Of a stretch of 64,000 bases of DNA, positions 29,999 to 36,185 are shown piece by piece. The DNA is from Bacillus sp. es.036. GTDB lineage: Bacteria; Bacillota; Bacilli; Bacillales; Guptibacillaceae. The stretch's first letter is position 1. Each line of letters begins with the position of its first letter. A model generated the notes under the pieces. That model had not been told where the DNA came from. It searched no databases and worked only from the letters and a program-made list of their open reading frames with translations. The stretch spans positions 3,410,001-3,474,000 of the forward strand of contig NZ_PDIZ01000001.1 in NCBI RefSeq assembly GCF_002563635.1, read 5' to 3'. The translations under genes and the position numbers were made by a program.

Positions 29999-30382
29999 CT
30001 ATTTACGCTGATCGAAAAAGGCGCCGTCCGTATATGCAGCTGTCTTTGACTTATAATTATTAGATGCTGCTTTTCCTTGCTGGAAACGTCTCATTTGATC
30101 CGAAAAAGCTGAATAAAGCTCCGACAACTTAGGTTGAATCATTTCTTCAAGAGCGCTTAGCTGTTGTAATAGTCCTTGCTCATCTTCCGTCCAATCCTTG
30201 CCTTCTGTCTCCATCGCTTCGTCTAATAGTTTAATTGTTTCCTCACGACGTGTGATCATATGATTAATACCGTCAAGCTTTTCTGTACCATCTTCATTCA
30301 TGGATGGATTGATTTCACCAAGTGATTTTGCAATTTGATTTGTCACCACATGCAGTTGATTTAACGCATCAATTCTTCTCAT
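29999..30382 (-). CDS. fliT: FliT-like flagellar chaperone
   Basis: A protein of 127 aa taken from MRRIDALNQLHVVTNQIAKS; the longer frame extends into fliD. It is predicted helical, with no catalytic motif. Position between fliD and fliS and its size suggest the FliD chaperone FliT, although order is reversed relative to fliD-fliS-fliT. Sequence similarity is not strong enough to be certain. Confidence 0.6.
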   Translation of the reverse strand: MRRIDALNQLHVVTNQIAKSLGEINPSMNEDGTEKLDGINHMITRREETIKLLDEAMETEGKDWTEDEQGLLQQLSALEEMIQPKLSELYSAFSDQMRRFQQGKAASNNYKSKTAAYTDGAFFDQRK

Positions 30383-30383
30383 T

Positions 30384-31856
30384 TTACATCCCCCCAAGTA
30401 AGTTTTGTTGTACCCATGCACTTTGCTGATTAAGTTGACTCATCGCCGTTTCAAGCGCAGAGAACTGTTTCCAATACCGATCTTCAATCGTCACGAGCTT
30501 ATCTTCCCAGTTTTCCATCTGTTCATCTAAATCTTTTAATCTCGTTGAAAGAAAGCTACTATCGACAAGCGTTCCTGGCGTACCTGCTTTTTTTCCTAGC
30601 TGATCGATCCCTTTGTTCACGGAATCGTAAAGACGATCGCCAATTCCATCTGTGCCGCTCGTAAACAGATTCATGACCTGATCTGGCTTTTGCTCCAGAG
30701 CACTTTTAAGTTTCGCTTCATCAATAAAGAGCTTGCCTCCATCCTGATAAGAACCGGTATTGATCCCAACTTGCGAAAGCATGCTAAGCTCACCTGCCGG
30801 AATTCCGCTAACCGGTGACATCCAGGCATTGCGGAGATCACTCACAATCCCTCGAACCGTCGCATCACTTTGAAGCATCCCACTCTTCGCCTTTTCTTCC
30901 CAAAGCTCAATCTCTTTCTCACTAAGGTCTTCTCTTTGTGCATCTGTGAGCGGTGGAAAATCGCGATTTCGCTTTTCAGTCAGCATCCCCTGCGCTTTAT
31001 CAATGAACTCGTTGTATTTCTCAACAAAATTCTTAATCATGTCAAAAGGAGCCTGAACATCACTTTGAACCGAAACGGTGGAAGTCCCTTTTTGAACGAA
31101 ATCAAGCTTTAGATTATTGATCGTTGTGGTATTCGTTTTCAAGTTATCAACAACAATCCCATCAAACGTCACAGAACCATACTTCCCTTGTGCAGTGTTG
31201 GCAGCGCCTCCGAGAATACGACTTTCTACCGTTGGATCACTGAATCCGAGCGAAAAGGACTCATCTCCGCCCATTGCTTTCGATGAAATGAAGAAGCGAG
31301 AGATCGTGTCATCGAAGCTTGCTCGTAAGCCAAGTGATTCACCAGTCGTACCATCTGTCGCACCGGCTATTTTTTCTGCGAGACTTTTAAATGTGTCTGA
31401 CGCAGTGATCGTAATGGAAGCCGTTTGCCCTTTGCTATTTGTAAGCTGAAGCGTCGTATCCGCTTCACCTGTTTGAAGCAATTTATCTGTTCCCTTCGCC
31501 GCACTGCCCGCTTCGTTTTGAATGGCCTGTCCAGATGTAAACTTGGCGCTTTGAGCGAGTTCGTTAACGGTAACCGAATAAGAACCTGGGACAGAGGTAG
31601 ATGTCGTTGTAGCAGTAACCGCTCCTGTGTTAGATGAAACGGTTTTAAAAGCATTGTAACCAGACTGCAACCGCATCGATGAAGCCATGCTTCGCATATC
31701 CGACATCATCGTATTTAATTCACGATAAGATTCCTTCTGCCATTCCATCGTTTGCTTCTTTTGAGACAATTTATCGAGCGGAATTCGCTCCGCCATCATG
31801 AGATCCTTTACCATCTGATCTGTATCCATCCCCGTCGCTAACCCGGAAATTCTCAT
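30384..31856 (-). CDS. fliD: Filament cap protein FliD
   Basis: A protein of 490 aa. The ATG at 31856 (MRISGLATGMDTDQMVKDLM) has GGAGG 8 nt upstream, whereas the ATG at 31862 touches the ribosome site. The C-terminal FliD_C region has VGINTGSYQDGGKLFIDEAK and the coiled end. FliD folds exported flagellin at the filament tip. A sigma-D promoter lies directly upstream. Confidence 0.93.
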   Translation of the reverse strand: MRISGLATGMDTDQMVKDLMMAERIPLDKLSQKKQTMEWQKESYRELNTMMSDMRSMASSMRLQSGYNAFKTVSSNTGAVTATTTSTSVPGSYSVTVNELAQSAKFTSGQAIQNEAGSAAKGTDKLLQTGEADTTLQLTNSKGQTASITITASDTFKSLAEKIAGATDGTTGESLGLRASFDDTISRFFISSKAMGGDESFSLGFSDPTVESRILGGAANTAQGKYGSVTFDGIVVDNLKTNTTTINNLKLDFVQKGTSTVSVQSDVQAPFDMIKNFVEKYNEFIDKAQGMLTEKRNRDFPPLTDAQREDLSEKEIELWEEKAKSGMLQSDATVRGIVSDLRNAWMSPVSGIPAGELSMLSQVGINTGSYQDGGKLFIDEAKLKSALEQKPDQVMNLFTSGTDGIGDRLYDSVNKGIDQLGKKAGTPGTLVDSSFLSTRLKDLDEQMENWEDKLVTIEDRYWKQFSALETAMSQLNQQSAWVQQNLLGGM

Positions 31857-31889
31857 GAACATCTCCTCCGTTCATACCTTCTATTGATA

Positions 31890-31916
31890 CTATCGGCAGG
31901 GGGAGTGAATTGTTTA
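31890..31916 (-). promoter_or_regulatory. Sigma-D promoter of fliD-fliT-fliS-motA-motB-fliL
   Basis: On the minus strand TAAA, exactly 15 nt, then GCCGATAG: a near-perfect sigma-D promoter. The expected start of transcription is about 25 nt before the fliD start. It separates late fliD expression from flaG, which has its own terminator just upstream. Confidence 0.85.
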
Positions 31917-31932
31917 AGGTGTAAAAAGACCT

Positions 31933-31957
31933 AAAAAGAACCCTCCACAGAGAGTTC
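31933..31957 (-). terminator. Terminator after flaG
   Basis: On the minus strand an 8-bp stem GAACTCTC/GAGGGTTC (one G-U pair), loop TGTG, followed by five T. It begins 7 bp after the flaG stop. Confidence 0.85.
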
Positions 31958-31963
31958 AACCAG

Positions 31964-32302
31964 TTAGATTTTCTGATCGACCATAAAGCCCAACAGCTCA
32001 GCCGTTGCCGCGTAGCGATCAAGGAACTTTTTTGAAGGGATTTCTTTAATGATTTCATCTGTCTTTGTGTCTATAATCTGGACGTAGTATTCGTTTAGTT
32101 TGTCGTGGAGTTGGAATTTGAGTGAGGTTTGAGATGGTTCGAGGTAGTTATTTAGGGAGTTGATGTGGTGCTCGACGATTTCTTTTGATAAAACTTTTTC
32201 TACTACCTCATGTTTTTCGACCGTCTTATTCATTTCAGTATTCTTTATTTGAGTTAATTTAGTTGGTCCAATAGGTGTGATTGAAACGTCTCTTAGTTCC
32301 AT
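31964..32302 (-). CDS. flaG: FlaG family protein
   Basis: A protein of 112 aa with a FlaG/YvyC domain in its second half (LKFQLHDKLNEYYVQIIDTK and EIIKEIPSKKFLDRYAATAE). FlaG influences filament length in some bacteria; its mechanism is unclear. GGAGAG precedes the start. It lies between the hag terminator and fliD, with no obvious sigma-D promoter of its own, so it may depend on read-through. Confidence 0.85.
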   Translation of the reverse strand: MELRDVSITPIGPTKLTQIKNTEMNKTVEKHEVVEKVLSKEIVEHHINSLNNYLEPSQTSLKFQLHDKLNEYYVQIIDTKTDEIIKEIPSKKFLDRYAATAELLGFMVDQKI

Positions 32303-32335
32303 CAGCTACTCTCCAATTCCGTATCAATTTGTTTT

Positions 32336-32367
32336 AAAAAAGGTGGCCTTCAATTGAAGACCACCTT
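32336..32367 (-). terminator. Terminator of the hag transcript
   Basis: A long hairpin on the minus strand (AAGGTGG-T-CTTCAA mirrored by TTGAAG-G-CCACCTT, one G-U pair) followed by six T. It stands 10 bp after the second flagellin stop codon, so the hag primary transcript should include the intron and the second C-terminus. Confidence 0.92.
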
Positions 32368-32376
32368 GTGAGTAAA

Positions 32377-32426
32377 TTAACGTAGAAGTTGTAGTACAGC
32401 TTGTGGCTGTTGGTTGGCTTGCTTTG
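32377..32426 (-). pseudogene. Second flagellin C-terminus downstream of the intron (3' exon or remnant)
   Basis: Read on the minus strand this encodes KQANQQPQAVLQLLR and a TAA stop, the classical flagellin end. It is homologous to the end of the complete hag gene (AQANQSSSAVLQLLR) but with different codons (for example CTACAACTTCTACGT against CTTCAGCTGCTAAGA), so it is not a recent copy. The frame stays open upstream to 32454, inside the intron's 3' part. It may be the 3' exon of hag joined by splicing, or the remnant of a lost tandem flagellin gene. Confidence 0.75.
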
Positions 32427-32746
32427 CCGCTGTTCCTTTCGGAGACAGAATAGACTATATCTTCACCTCTCGTGTTCGAAAGGGCCGGGCACTTCGAATG
32501 GCGTTTGCCACCCTACGGATTTCATCACCATAGCTTTCGCCTTAGATGGTTTATCCTAGTCGTTGAACCTTCTCCACTCTTTCGAGACAGGAGCTTGGCT
32601 GCTGATTATCCAATCTTGATTCTTTTCAACCCTTCACGCTCACCGTTTCCAGTCACGTTGTGGGGAATCAAGCTTCAGGAAGTTCCAACAATTCACCCGG
32701 TTATGCTCTTACCCGTTACCAGATAAGACGCCCTGTTCAATCAATT
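32427..32746 (-). ncRNA. Group I self-splicing intron at the 3' end of hag
   Basis: The four conserved group I core elements occur in order on the minus strand: P (AATTGTTGGAA, ending 32678-32693), Q (AATCAGCAGCCAAG, 32590-32607), R (GTTCAACGACTAGG, 32555-32568) and S (AAGATATAGTC, 32453-32463). R and S pair as P7 (GACTA with TAGTC). A P1 helix is available: TAAGAT at the hag end (32747-32752) with GTCTTA (32724-32729), including the required U-G pair, which puts the 5' splice site after the T of the hag TAA. A P9 hairpin with a GAAA loop (32430-32448) precedes the likely 3' end. About 320 nt, no homing endonuclease gene. The core is secure; both borders, especially the 3' one, are inferred. 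Confidence 0.85.
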
Positions 32747-33587
32747 ATCTTAGCAGCTGAAGCACTGCAGAAGAACTTTGATTAGCTTGAGCCAACATTG
32801 CTTGTGACGCCTGGTTAAGGATGTTGTTCTTAGTGAAGTCCATCATTTCTTTTGCCATGTCTACGTCGCGGACACGAGATTCAGCAGCAGTCAAGTTTTC
32901 AGAACTTGTGCCAAGATTATTGATAGTGTGTTCAAGTCGGTTTTGATAAGCTCCAATTTGAGAACGACCAGCACTTACGTCTTGGATAGCTGTTTCGATA
33001 GCTTGAAGAGAAGCATCAGCATCAGTGGATGTTGCAACAGATAAACCTGTCAAATCAGTTCCTACAATTTCAGTTAGGTTAATACCTTTTTTAGAAAAAT
33101 CCATAACCATTGTCTCTGTAGTGTTAGCTCCAACCTGTAGAGTTATCTGCCCATCAGTAGCAGATCCGGAAGAAGCATCAAGGAGGTTTTGCTTGTTAAA
33201 TGCAGTTCGAGTATTAATATTTCCTAGTTCTGAAGTAAGCTCATCTAATTCAGTTTGAATTGCGGCACGATCTTCACTAATGTTAGTATCATTAGTTGCC
33301 TGTACACTCAATTCACGCATACGCTGAAGAATAGAATGCGCTTCATTCAATCCACCTTCTGCTGTTTGCAATAGGCTTATTCCATCTTGAGCATTACGTG
33401 AAGCTTGATCAAGCCCACGAATTTGTGCGCGCATTTTTTCAGAAATTGAAAGCCCGGCTGCATCATCTGCTGCGTTATTGATTCTTAGTCCTGAAGAAAG
33501 TTTCTCCATGTTCTTAGATGCGTTCAATTGGTTCGCACCCATCTGATTGTACGTGTTCATTGCTGCTAAGTTGTGATTAATAATCAT
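32745..33587 (-). CDS. hag: Flagellin Hag
   Basis: A protein of 280 aa from the ATG at 33587 (MIINHNLAAMNTYNQMGANQ), which has GGAGG 11 nt upstream; 15 further codons are open but lie in the leader. N-terminal D0/D1 (SSGLRINNAADDAAGLSISE) and C-terminal D1/D0 (MLAQANQSSSAVLQLLR) are complete, with a short variable middle. The stop TAA coincides with the start of a group I intron: if splicing occurs as modelled, the frame may read on to a second flagellin C-terminus. The leader has several GGA motifs, fitting CsrA control, and a perfect sigma-D promoter. Confidence 0.95.
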   Translation of the reverse strand: MIINHNLAAMNTYNQMGANQLNASKNMEKLSSGLRINNAADDAAGLSISEKMRAQIRGLDQASRNAQDGISLLQTAEGGLNEAHSILQRMRELSVQATNDTNISEDRAAIQTELDELTSELGNINTRTAFNKQNLLDASSGSATDGQITLQVGANTTETMVMDFSKKGINLTEIVGTDLTGLSVATSTDADASLQAIETAIQDVSAGRSQIGAYQNRLEHTINNLGTSSENLTAAESRVRDVDMAKEMMDFTKNNILNQASQAMLAQANQSSSAVLQLLR

Positions 33588-33652
33588 CCCTAAATCTACC
33601 TCCATGTAATTGGTTTTATCAAGAAAATCCACATCCGTTTGGACTTCCTAAC
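33588..33652 (-). promoter_or_regulatory. hag 5' leader with GGA motifs (likely CsrA target)
   Basis: Within about 65 nt of leader the minus strand carries GGA in TAGGAAG, ACGGATG, GTGGATT and in the Shine-Dalgarno TGGAGGT. CsrA of B. subtilis represses hag by binding two GGA motifs, one at the Shine-Dalgarno site. csrA and fliW lie directly upstream in this window, which supports the same control here. Binding is inferred. Confidence 0.55.
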
Positions 33653-33659
33653 ACCACTA

Positions 33660-33686
33660 TTATCGGCAGGCATTTTAGGATGTTTA
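33660..33686 (-). promoter_or_regulatory. Sigma-D promoter of hag
   Basis: TAAA, exactly 15 nt, then GCCGATAA on the minus strand, a textbook sigma-D promoter. It starts hag transcription about 65 nt before the start codon. Confidence 0.93.
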
Positions 33687-33812
33687 ATAGTTATCTGAAA
33701 AATATTTAGAAAAACTTGGATTTATCTCAAGCTCTAGCGATAATTATCGTTTTGCTTATAATTCAGGTTAAGAAGGATACACCTTCTCGGAGGACAAAAA
33801 AGAACCTCCGTC

Positions 33813-34061
33813 TTATGACTTCGGTCCCTTTGAACTGTTACTCTTCTGAAACTCCTTCAAATCCTCCAGGCTAAACTCCTGCATCGCCGCAAGCTTATTC
33901 TCTGACTGAATGGCTTCATACACTTCTTTTCGGTGGATGGCAATGTTCTTCGGCGCTTCTACACCAAGCTTAACGGTGTCACCATCAATGCTAATAATCT
34001 TAAGTTCAATTTCATCATTAATCACAATCGATTCGCCTTTTTTACGTCCAAGTACGAGCAT
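33813..34061 (-). CDS. csrA: Translational regulator CsrA
   Basis: A protein of 82 aa beginning [20 protein letters not shown], the CsrA family start, with [20 protein letters not shown]. It binds GGA motifs in RNA; in Bacillus its main target is hag mRNA, and FliW antagonises it. The stop of fliW and start of csrA are adjacent. The 150 bp between its end and the hag promoter hold a CGGAGG/CCTCCG hairpin without a clear T-run and no gene. Confidence 0.95.
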
Positions 34062-34511
34062 TTACTCCGCCTCCTCTGTGTTCACTTGCTTTAAGAGAGG
34101 TTCTTTGATGCCATACTCCTGTTTTAAGACAAGTTGTTTTCCAGTATGTTTTTCGGTGTTAAATATAAGCGGTGCTTTTAAATTCATTGTCGCTTCTTTT
34201 AATGAACCCTGAACAGTAAGAATGGAAAGAACGAGCGCATGGGCTGGATCGGTTAAATTAAGCTGGGCAAGCGTGCTATCGTCAAGGTTTACTTCATAAT
34301 TTGGATAAAAGGAAAACGGATCTGCGAGGAAAAAGCACAGGCCGCTTTCTTCTGTTGATTGTAAAAAGTAAAAAGGAGACTCATCATTGTCATCGGCGGG
34401 TAATAGACAGTAAGTTGTAAAGTGCTCAAGGCCAGGGATGCCACTTTCAAACGTGACGAGACGTTCTTCGGTGACGTCCATTTCTCCAAAGCGTGCAGTA
34501 TGTAATTTCAT
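34062..34511 (-). CDS. fliW: Flagellar assembly factor FliW
   Basis: A protein of 149 aa with the FliW signatures VTFESGIPGLEHFTTYCLLP, FYFLQSTEESGLCFFLADPF and TMNLKAPLIFNTEKHTGKQL. FliW binds free flagellin or CsrA, linking flagellin secretion to hag translation. It leads the fliW-csrA pair; AAAGGAG precedes the ATG. Confidence 0.95.
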   Translation of the reverse strand: MKLHTARFGEMDVTEERLVTFESGIPGLEHFTTYCLLPADDNDESPFYFLQSTEESGLCFFLADPFSFYPNYEVNLDDSTLAQLNLTDPAHALVLSILTVQGSLKEATMNLKAPLIFNTEKHTGKQLVLKQEYGIKEPLLKQVNTEEAE

Positions 34512-34544
34512 AGCGATCTCCTTTGTTGATCAGTGTGTACCTTC

Positions 34545-34573
34545 ATTATAAAGCCTATAGCGCTTTTTTCCAT
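34545..34573 (-). promoter_or_regulatory. Possible sigma-A promoter of fliW-csrA
   Basis: A perfect TATAAT (34545-34550 on minus) lies 33 nt upstream of the fliW start; the -35 (ATGGAA at 17 nt) is poor. No sigma-D consensus is visible, so fliW-csrA may be expressed independently of SigD. Confidence 0.35.
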
Positions 34574-34698
34574 GGATAATTTGTTGTCTTTTTGAAATTT
34601 CGGTAAACTTAAAGTAACAGACAACCGCTGAAAAAGCAGAATTGTGTCGAAGTTTTATTCTTAATCACATAATGATCAACATGAAAGGAGAAAGCGTC

Positions 34699-35421
34699 AT
34701 GAAGATCACCTTTTATCCGCTCGGTGAAGCAGCTGTGAAATGCTGTTTTCATGAAGACATTTCAACTGCCCTTACGAATAAAATTCAATCGTTTTGTCAA
34801 AAGCTACACCACCATCATACTGGCATTACGGAATGGGTACCTGCCTATGACTCTGTCGCCGTTTACTATGATCCGTGGAAGCTTTCGTATGAAGAAATGA
34901 CTAACGTCCTTCAACCTATCGCGAACGAAATTGACGCAAATGAACAGAAAACGAATACAGTGATTACCATTCCAACCGTTTACGGAAGCGACTATGGTCC
35001 GGACCTTGAAAATCTCGCAGCTGCCAACAACCTTTCCAACAAAGAAGTGATCGACTTACATACAAAGCTCCACTACCTCATTAACATGATCGGCTTTTTA
35101 CCAGGCTTTCCTTACTTAAGCGGAGTTGATGAACGACTCGCGATGACGCGCCTTGAAAATCCAAGGAAGTCTGTTCCGGCTGGATCGGTTGGTATTGCTG
35201 AAAGTCAGACTGGGATATATCCGCTCGATTCACCTGGCGGCTGGAATCTTATCGGGCGCACGCCGTTAAAGCTTTTTGATGCGGAAAAAGAAGAGCCATT
35301 TCTGTTTGAGCAGGGTGATTATTTGCGGTTTACATCGATTACTGAAGATGAATTTAAGCGCATTCAACGAGAAATTGAGGATGGCACGTACGAACTTGAA
35401 CGCAGGGAGGACTCCGAATGA
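34699..35421 (+). CDS. pxpB: 5-oxoprolinase subunit PxpB (KipI family)
   Basis: A protein of 240 aa from the ATG at 34699, which has AAAGGAG 8 nt upstream; the open frame begins earlier at 34642. Family motifs are MIGFLPGFPYLSGVDERLAM and SVPAGSVGIAESQTGIYPLD then SPGGWNLIGRTP. With PxpA and PxpC it forms the ATP-dependent enzyme that opens 5-oxoproline to glutamate. It overlaps pxpA by 4 bp. KipI of B. subtilis also inhibits the sporulation kinase KinA. Confidence 0.93.
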   Translation: MKITFYPLGEAAVKCCFHEDISTALTNKIQSFCQKLHHHHTGITEWVPAYDSVAVYYDPWKLSYEEMTNVLQPIANEIDANEQKTNTVITIPTVYGSDYGPDLENLAAANNLSNKEVIDLHTKLHYLINMIGFLPGFPYLSGVDERLAMTRLENPRKSVPAGSVGIAESQTGIYPLDSPGGWNLIGRTPLKLFDAEKEEPFLFEQGDYLRFTSITEDEFKRIQREIEDGTYELERREDSE

Positions 35422-36185
35422 CATTTCGCATTGATTTAAACAGTGACCTTGGGGAAAGCTTTGGTACTTATGTTGTTGGTCAGGATGAACAGGTGCTTGA
35501 GCTCATTTCTTCCGCCAACATTGCATGTGGCTATCATGCCGGTGACCCGCATATTATGAATAAAACGGTGGAATGGGCGAAAGAGCATCATGTTGGTATC
35601 GGGGCGCACCCCGGATTTCCTGATTTAGTTGGTTTTGGCCGTCGCAATATGAACATTACACCAGAGGATACGTACTCGCTCGTTCTTTATCAAATCGGAG
35701 CCCTGCACGGGTTCTGCAGCGCACATGAAGTTCCCCTTCAGCACGTCAAACCGCACGGTGCGCTTTACAATATGGCATCTAAAGATCCCGAACTCGCAAA
35801 CGCCATTGCGCAGGCCGTAAAAGATTTTAATTCAGAGCTGATTCTATTCGGCCTTGCTAATTCAGAGCTTATTCGCGCTGCGCAGGATGCTGCACTTCCT
35901 TATGCTTCAGAAGTGTTTGCCGACAGAACGTATCAGCCTGATGGTTCGCTTACCCCACGTGTTGAAAAAAATGCGATGATTCGAGATGAGCAAGCGGCGA
36001 TCGAACAGGTGATTCAAATGGTGAAAGAAGGAACCGTAACAGCCGTGGATGGCTCGATTATTTCAATTGAAGCGGATACGGTTTGTGTGCACGGAGACGA
36101 GTCGTCAGCGCTTGCGTTTATTAAGGCGCTTCGGAAACGGTTGACGGAAGAAAATATTGAGATGGAAAGGGTCGGAAACCGGTGA
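35418..36185 (+). CDS. pxpA: 5-oxoprolinase subunit PxpA (LamB/YcsF family)
   Basis: A protein of 255 aa with IDLNSDLGESFGTYVVGQDE, ANIACGYHAGDPHIM and VKPHGALYNMA, all invariant LamB/YcsF motifs. It is the subunit that carries out oxoproline ring opening. It is coupled to pxpB and pxpC through 4-bp overlaps. Gene order pxpB-pxpA-pxpC. Confidence 0.95.
   Translation: MTFRIDLNSDLGESFGTYVVGQDEQVLELISSANIACGYHAGDPHIMNKTVEWAKEHHVGIGAHPGFPDLVGFGRRNMNITPEDTYSLVLYQIGALHGFCSAHEVPLQHVKPHGALYNMASKDPELANAIAQAVKDFNSELILFGLANSELIRAAQDAALPYASEVFADRTYQPDGSLTPRVEKNAMIRDEQAAIEQVIQMVKEGTVTAVDGSIISIEADTVCVHGDESSALAFIKALRKRLTEENIEMERVGNR

Follow-up and report, generated by a model that had tools for sequence, protein, structure and literature searches.

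The flagellin gene hag in the stretch of Bacillus sp. es.036 DNA analysed here (64,000 nt, hereafter the window) is interrupted close to its 3′ end by a real group I intron, whose 5′ end copies the downstream exon and very probably acts as a fail-safe, such that complete flagellin would be produced from spliced and unspliced transcripts alike. According to the mechanism we propose, a self-splicing intron would have entered the flagellin gene at the junction of MLA and QANQQPQAVLQLLR, with its first 45 nt forming, within the P1 loop, an in-frame copy of exon 2 (14 codons and a stop). Where splicing occurs, the tail would be supplied by exon 2; before splicing, or when it does not take place, ribosomes would enter the intron, end on the mimic tail and release a complete flagellin. 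As either route would yield flagellin of the same length, a splicing failure would cost the gene little.

A search of positions 30000-36000 with the Rfam model RF00028 (Intron_gpI) returned a match at 32430-32748 of the minus strand, on which all intron and exon features given below lie, with 77.9 bits (cut-off 50; E = 4e-19) and with the model covered over positions 1-253 of 253. Genome-wide (4.34 Mb), no other Intron_gpI match reached E ≤ 0.001. The group I intron which the initial annotation of the sequence had recognized at the end of hag, with an Infernal search against this model named as a check, was hence corroborated; regarding its position, 37 nt at the intron start (32789-32753) had been missed. 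As in group I introns, the 5′ exon ends in a U paired with a G of the guide, and the terminal G is preceded by a P9.0 strand. The Rfam alignment also located the 3′ strand of P7 together with what we take to be the S element (GATATAGTC, 32453..32461), and showed an insertion of about 60 nt between P7 and P3, the place where a P7.1/P7.2 insertion defines group IA2.

Computation of the anatomy of the gene gave the following arrangement. Exon 1 (32791..33632, with its last base, T, at 32790), defined by its open reading frame, Pfam Flagellin_N and Flagellin_C, intron-less relatives and pairing, runs to ...SQAMLA, and is followed by an intron of 368 nt (32422..32789; GCT|CAA ... AAAG|CAA), which was placed by RF00028, intron-less relatives and the P1 and P9.0 pairings. 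The intron starts 14 codons ahead of the annotated hag stop, a stop codon that is intronic in genomes of this kind: the hag open reading frame (32745-33632) has the C-terminus SSSAVLQLLR-stop, and its last 14 codons and stop constitute tail 1 (QANQSSSAVLQLLR-stop, 32745..32789), a mimic exon sitting in the P1 loop. Beyond the intron core, the sequence encodes KQANQQPQAVLQLLR and a stop, finishing at 32377; within it, exon 2, or tail 2 (QANQQPQAVLQLLR-stop, 32377..32421), was identified as the original flagellin end by comparison of the tails and of the 3′ flank of intron-less relatives. Both in-frame C-termini pointed out in the initial annotation are thus real flagellin tails.

The comparison with intron-less flagellin genes that had been suggested there was informative, since two relatives of the same genus (G005 and G006) carry a single tail, equal to tail 2, with a 3′ flank resembling that of the window. 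Both read ...SQAMLS|QANQQPQAVLQLLR, encoded as ATG-CTC-AGT|CAA-GCC-AAT-CAA-CAG-CCG in G005 and as ATG-CTA-AGC|CAA-GCC-AAC-CAA-CAG-CCA in G006 (MLS|QANQQPQAVLQLLR in each case), which identifies tail 2 as the original exon and places the insertion before QANQ. The base preceding the insertion point was U in 89/89 gene ends with the intron vs 54/95 without it.

The splice sites, GCT|CAA at the 5′ side (32790|32789) and AAAG|CAA at the 3′ side (32422|32421), follow from these relatives, from covariation in P1 and P9.0, and from a homologous sister intron. Thus, the internal guide sequence GGGC (32730..32733) and its exon-intron partner GCU|C pair in all 54 introns with a located 5′ site at the position of the window's intron (type 2). 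Both P9.0 pairs, formed in the window by UU (32449..32450) and by AA (32423..32424), which the terminal G at 32422 follows, were also present in all 54, as UU/AA in 49, CA/UG in three and AC/GU in two. In the sister intron (type 1), P9.0 forms in 63/63 cases (GU/AC in 60, GU/GC in three), and hence all 117 introns of both types are paired; its guide pairing GAU|U × AGUC is complete in 62/63, with three of four pairs in the remaining one. The patterns employed for these counts, which located the 5′ site in 63/64 sister introns and in 54/55 type-2 introns, prescribed the G preceding exon 2, two guide bases out of four and the initial letters of the exons; they imposed nothing on the third codon position ahead of the 5′ site, on P9.0, on the remaining guide bases, on the length and sequence of tail 1 or on the leader sequence. 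With these results, the sites assigned in the initial annotation had to be abandoned, both the 5′ one inside the hag stop codon (T|AA), given that exon-guide pairing and the P1 extension indicate GCT|CAA, and the 3′ one after G32427 or G32435, since P9.0 covariation and the intron-less relatives indicate G32422. G32430, where the Rfam match ends, was similarly discarded as a 3′ splice site, because P9.0 and the sister intron place this site 8 nt further. A terminator-like hairpin with a T run was observed after tail 2 (32330-32376), and is near-identical behind the single tail of the intron-less relative L028.

The exon-guide part of P1 comprises only 4 bp. It is accompanied by an extension, supported by covariation and by the predicted fold, in which codons 2-4 of tail 1 (5′ strand AAUCAA, 32778..32783) pair with the bases between the tail-1 stop and the guide (3′ strand UUGAUU, 32739..32744, adjoining that stop). 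This helix varies by species yet stays paired: the mean score over 49 distinct introns was 13.3, compared to 11.8 when partners were swapped (0/1000 as high) and 8.7 when letters were shuffled (0/300 as high). The minimum-energy fold of the window's sequence contained the P1 extension and lacked the 4-bp guide helix. The helix of TAAGAT with GTCTTA, on which the former 5′ site had been based, does exist in the window; its 6 bp, however, are not kept across relatives, since contiguous pairing extends over 6 bp in 18 of the 54 introns and over 4 bp in 23, falling to 3 bp in 10 and to 2 bp in three. The two stretches concerned, 32745-32750 and 32724-32729, often pair, although a site there has no splice support.

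With the splice sites as mapped, splicing would replace a 14-residue tail by an equally long one and would add none. The predicted spliced mRNA ends in ...QAMLA-QANQQPQAVLQLLR and the unspliced one in ...QAMLA-QANQSSSAVLQLLR; both isoforms have 280 residues, counted from MIINHN, and their predicted C-terminal peptides are ...AQANQSSSAVLQLLR and ...AQANQQPQAVLQLLR. It had been anticipated correctly that the two mRNAs differ in the D0 tail, whereas the double-tailed spliced product described alongside is not compatible with tail 1 lying inside the intron. Complete Flagellin_N and Flagellin_C domains were found in both isoforms, with Pfam Flagellin_C matched over 1-86 of 86 positions at 102.3 bits (unspliced) and 108.4 bits (spliced), while a protein cut at MLA matched over 1-73 of 86 with 86.2 bits. 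The two filament structures whose alignments were compared (8jmv and 6t17) have the tail-2 type QANQQPQ. We infer that splicing takes place in vivo, that useful amounts of flagellin are translated from unspliced transcripts and that both isoforms may be assembled.

In order to place these counts, the underlying sample is described here. Of the 397 genomes of the order that were searched, 165 had a group I match (E ≤ 1e-14) irrespective of the gene, and 112 regions were fetched from the matches listed, in addition to loci found earlier, so the relatives do not represent a census. Ten short matches (< about 270 nt), a longer one in G334 and three repeats in G017 were left out, as were weaker matches from an earlier search that came without loci. 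Among the matches listed, 158 distinct cores were classified into 64 of type 1, 55 of type 2 and 39 of other kinds; on a rough reading of the latter, L044, L060 and L069 seem to be variants of the sister intron, and L102, assigned by the script to the class "other", is a type-2 intron with an intact tail-1 copy. The 54 type-2 introns with a located 5′ site represent, within the matches listed, at least 50 genomes, belonging to 30 genera and 22 family codes; in 29 cases a type-1 intron precedes the type-2 intron within the same gene. In every one of these 54, tail 1 consists of exactly 14 codons and a stop, and an intact 14-residue mimic tail was present in 55/56 introns examined at the site among the matches listed. 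The remaining one, L145, harbors a decayed, frameshifted tail-1 copy that ends in QLSNFIKKKLNFLSKMETGRLTW (about 2700-2760 and 3019), a natural case which indicates that the mimic is not indispensable. In the genus of the window, 7/14 genomes contain the intron. A second core, behind decayed tail-like sequence and near the end of the fetched stretch, was observed in L096 (about 2440-2901) and was left out of the counts.

Tail 1 is conserved as protein. Pairwise dN/dS was 0.099 for tail 1 and 0.083 for tail 2, compared to 0.267 over the final 30 codons of exon 1, with synonymous change in tail 1 near saturation (pS 0.64). Within a gene, both tails share 84% of their residues and 67% of their nucleotides, and different codons are used in 355/635 of the identical residues, which indicates that the copy is old. 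Gene conversion between tails as the source of the matching residues is unlikely for the same reason, and also in view of L069, where both tails have Arg at residue 5 via CGG and AGA. Changes in the two tails run in parallel: the last residue is identical in 54/54 (R in 49, Q in three, G in two) although the intron tree implies four changes of it in either tail, and residue 8 agrees in 52/54, with three changes in tail 1 and two in tail 2. Codons 9-13 of tail 1 encode VLQLL in 54/54, with much synonymous change. In most introns at the site the tails differ at two residues only, QSNQMPQG vs QANQQPQG, and the commonest tail in genes without this intron, QANQQPQGVLQLLR (52/95), is tail-2-like. 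Tail 1 combines a low dN/dS with changes that parallel those of the real exon, L145 being the exception. Since related sequences were counted here as separate cases and support is weak for 26/51 inner branches of the intron tree, the evidence for the mimic is strong while its cases are not independent. The parallel change is difficult to account for unless cells produce and use flagellin with tail 1 at its end.

Several other readings of the region were weighed against the fail-safe one. If splicing used T|AA together with G32427 (or G32430), flagellin with two consecutive tails would result. The 6-bp pairing in the window, and one of at least 4 bp in 41/54 introns, speak for such a layout, yet the drop to 2-3 bp in the other 13 marks this helix as common but not kept; the intron-less relatives and P9.0 lead to G32422, T|AA combined with the Rfam 3′ end would rebuild a TAG stop in the relative L010, and the pairing of tail-1 codons 2-4 in the P1 extension assigns these codons to the intron. 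Taken together, this makes the two-tail layout scarcely credible. Joining T|AA to G32435 would instead rebuild the stop and leave the intron in the 3′ untranslated region, with tail 2 as an unused relic. The base arithmetic fits in the window, but of the three stretches compared none is better conserved than tail 2, which also matches the tail commonly found in genes lacking the intron, so that this reading has next to no likelihood. It might also be supposed that the intron is dead, or the spacer unrelated, with tail 2 derived from a deleted tandem flagellin gene and tail 1 alone in use. Decayed copies of the region do exist (L096); nevertheless, the core, the guide and the P9.0 pairing have been kept over 50 genomes, which calls for selection on splicing, and tail 2 is under strong protein constraint, and we regard this possibility as very unlikely.

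With regard to tail 1 itself, it could have been retained for RNA only, as part of the P1 extension, with its coding capacity incidental. The fact that codons 2-4 pair and covary with the stretch after the stop agrees with such a role, which nonetheless fails to account for VLQLL at codons 9-13 of all 54 introns despite much synonymous change, for the fixed length and stop, or for a last residue that tracks the host exon; a purely structural tail 1 is accordingly most improbable. Rather unlikely, too, is a regulated switch in which splicing, perhaps in dependence on temperature, would choose between isoforms with different properties. Passages of PMC4853749 describe flagellin intron splicing in thermophilic bacilli as temperature-dependent and as a possible means of regulating flagellin. 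Moreover, in 7/7 genomes of the window's genus, three consecutive residues distinguish the tails, SSS in tail 1 vs QPQ, and the isoforms may be non-equivalent there. Against a switch in general stand the two-residue difference in most introns and the parallel change of the last residues, which point to equivalent tails.

The sister intron interrupts flagellin genes at RDVD|MAKEMM, a site upstream of the type-2 position that has no repeated tail; it was absent from the window's genome. It was seen at loci L004-L006, L020, in part of L037-L143, and at L179-L296; in L067, three consecutive flagellin genes each have it, with the leader YDLIAA in all three. Among the matches listed, the 5′ site was found in 63/64 type-1 introns, always as GAT|, with a 3′ end G|ATG and the same geometry as in type 2. 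In 156 distinct introns, including named records from genera such as Halobacillus, Rossellomorea, Sporosarcina and Planococcus, the read-through leader from RDVD had five residues in 136, six in 19 and eight in one; it was YALAA in 85 and ended in AA in 147, the rest ending in VA (five), AS (two), AV (one) or TA (one). The AA end was retained in leaders with an extra codon (YDLAAA, YVLSAA, YDLIAA) and in one that had lost the usual stop (YALAASAA). The AA codons lie in an RNA hairpin, in which at least one of the first two bases of the penultimate codon is paired in 156/156, and the hairpin alone would keep some of their letters. Where the first two bases of the last codon were both unpaired in the fold, however, that codon was Ala in 20/20, and this favours, short of proof, the view that AA has been kept for protein reasons.

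Whether the leader acts as a degron of the tmRNA (ssrA) type is less certain. AA-ending tags, and variants such as LVA, route proteins to ClpXP. ARAGORN predicted tmRNA tags at 14/30 loci, from 14 genomes, all with AA as the last residues (ALAA or AVAA in most, AFAA and SLAAA as well); the tag of G031 ends in NNYALAA. The remaining 16/30 were obtained with a pattern in which an AA end was prescribed, and they do not count as independent evidence. The likeness thus resides in the YALAA end and its variants, whereas the leader, in contrast to ssrA tags, is encoded in the mRNA's own intron and would be added by ordinary translation instead of trans-translation. An unspliced sister intron would, on this model, lead to release of a truncated flagellin with a degron-like end, which would then be destroyed. 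We lean, with less assurance than for the fail-safe itself, towards a common principle ("translation-safe introns") in which the leaders of flagellin group I introns would set the fate of the protein made from unspliced RNA, by the copied tail in the window's intron and by the YALAA degron upstream. If this is true, these introns would handle their own splicing failures at the protein level: the spare protein end would make non-splicing harmless, while the sister intron would perhaps tag failures for disposal, and the persistence of introns in a highly expressed, assembly-sensitive gene would be explained.

Flagellin group I introns as such are already known, from thermophilic Bacillaceae (Hayakawa and Ishizuka 2009, 2012, cited in PMC3984707 and PMC4853749). 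These citing papers agree, in the passages concerned, with the mention of such introns in the initial annotation, and one of them (PMC4853749) classifies the flagellin intron as group IA2. The same gene and the same kind of ribozyme are involved, but the citing passages mention neither a spare tail nor a degron-like leader. No description of either was found among the openly licensed papers covered by the searches. Introns in bacterial protein genes are presented in a passage of PMC3984707 as costly, with ribosomes trailing the polymerase and translating unspliced RNA, and splicing-based regulation is treated in general in part of PMC8987985. The intron in a surface-layer gene of Clostridium tetani, as outlined in PMC3919590, is likewise a ribozyme intron that gives several variants of an abundant surface protein, although it belongs to group II and undergoes four alternative splicing reactions. 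The window's intron, by comparison, would have one splicing reaction, its alternative tail coming from unspliced RNA. Certain mobile elements of fungal mitochondria contain a duplicate of the 3′ end of their host gene. There, too, an inserted element provides a replacement C-terminus, but the copy permanently replaces the original end, whereas the window keeps both and splicing would decide between them.

Group I introns were further observed near VEQGGSR in a putative ribonucleotide-reductase-like gene (L002, L011, L065, L072, L088, L091, L105, L114, L131 and L141). In L011, L072, L088, L091, L105 and L131, the frame stops directly after GGSR, with neither a mimic nor a degron-like end. HNH-like frames were noticed at some of the neighbouring loci.
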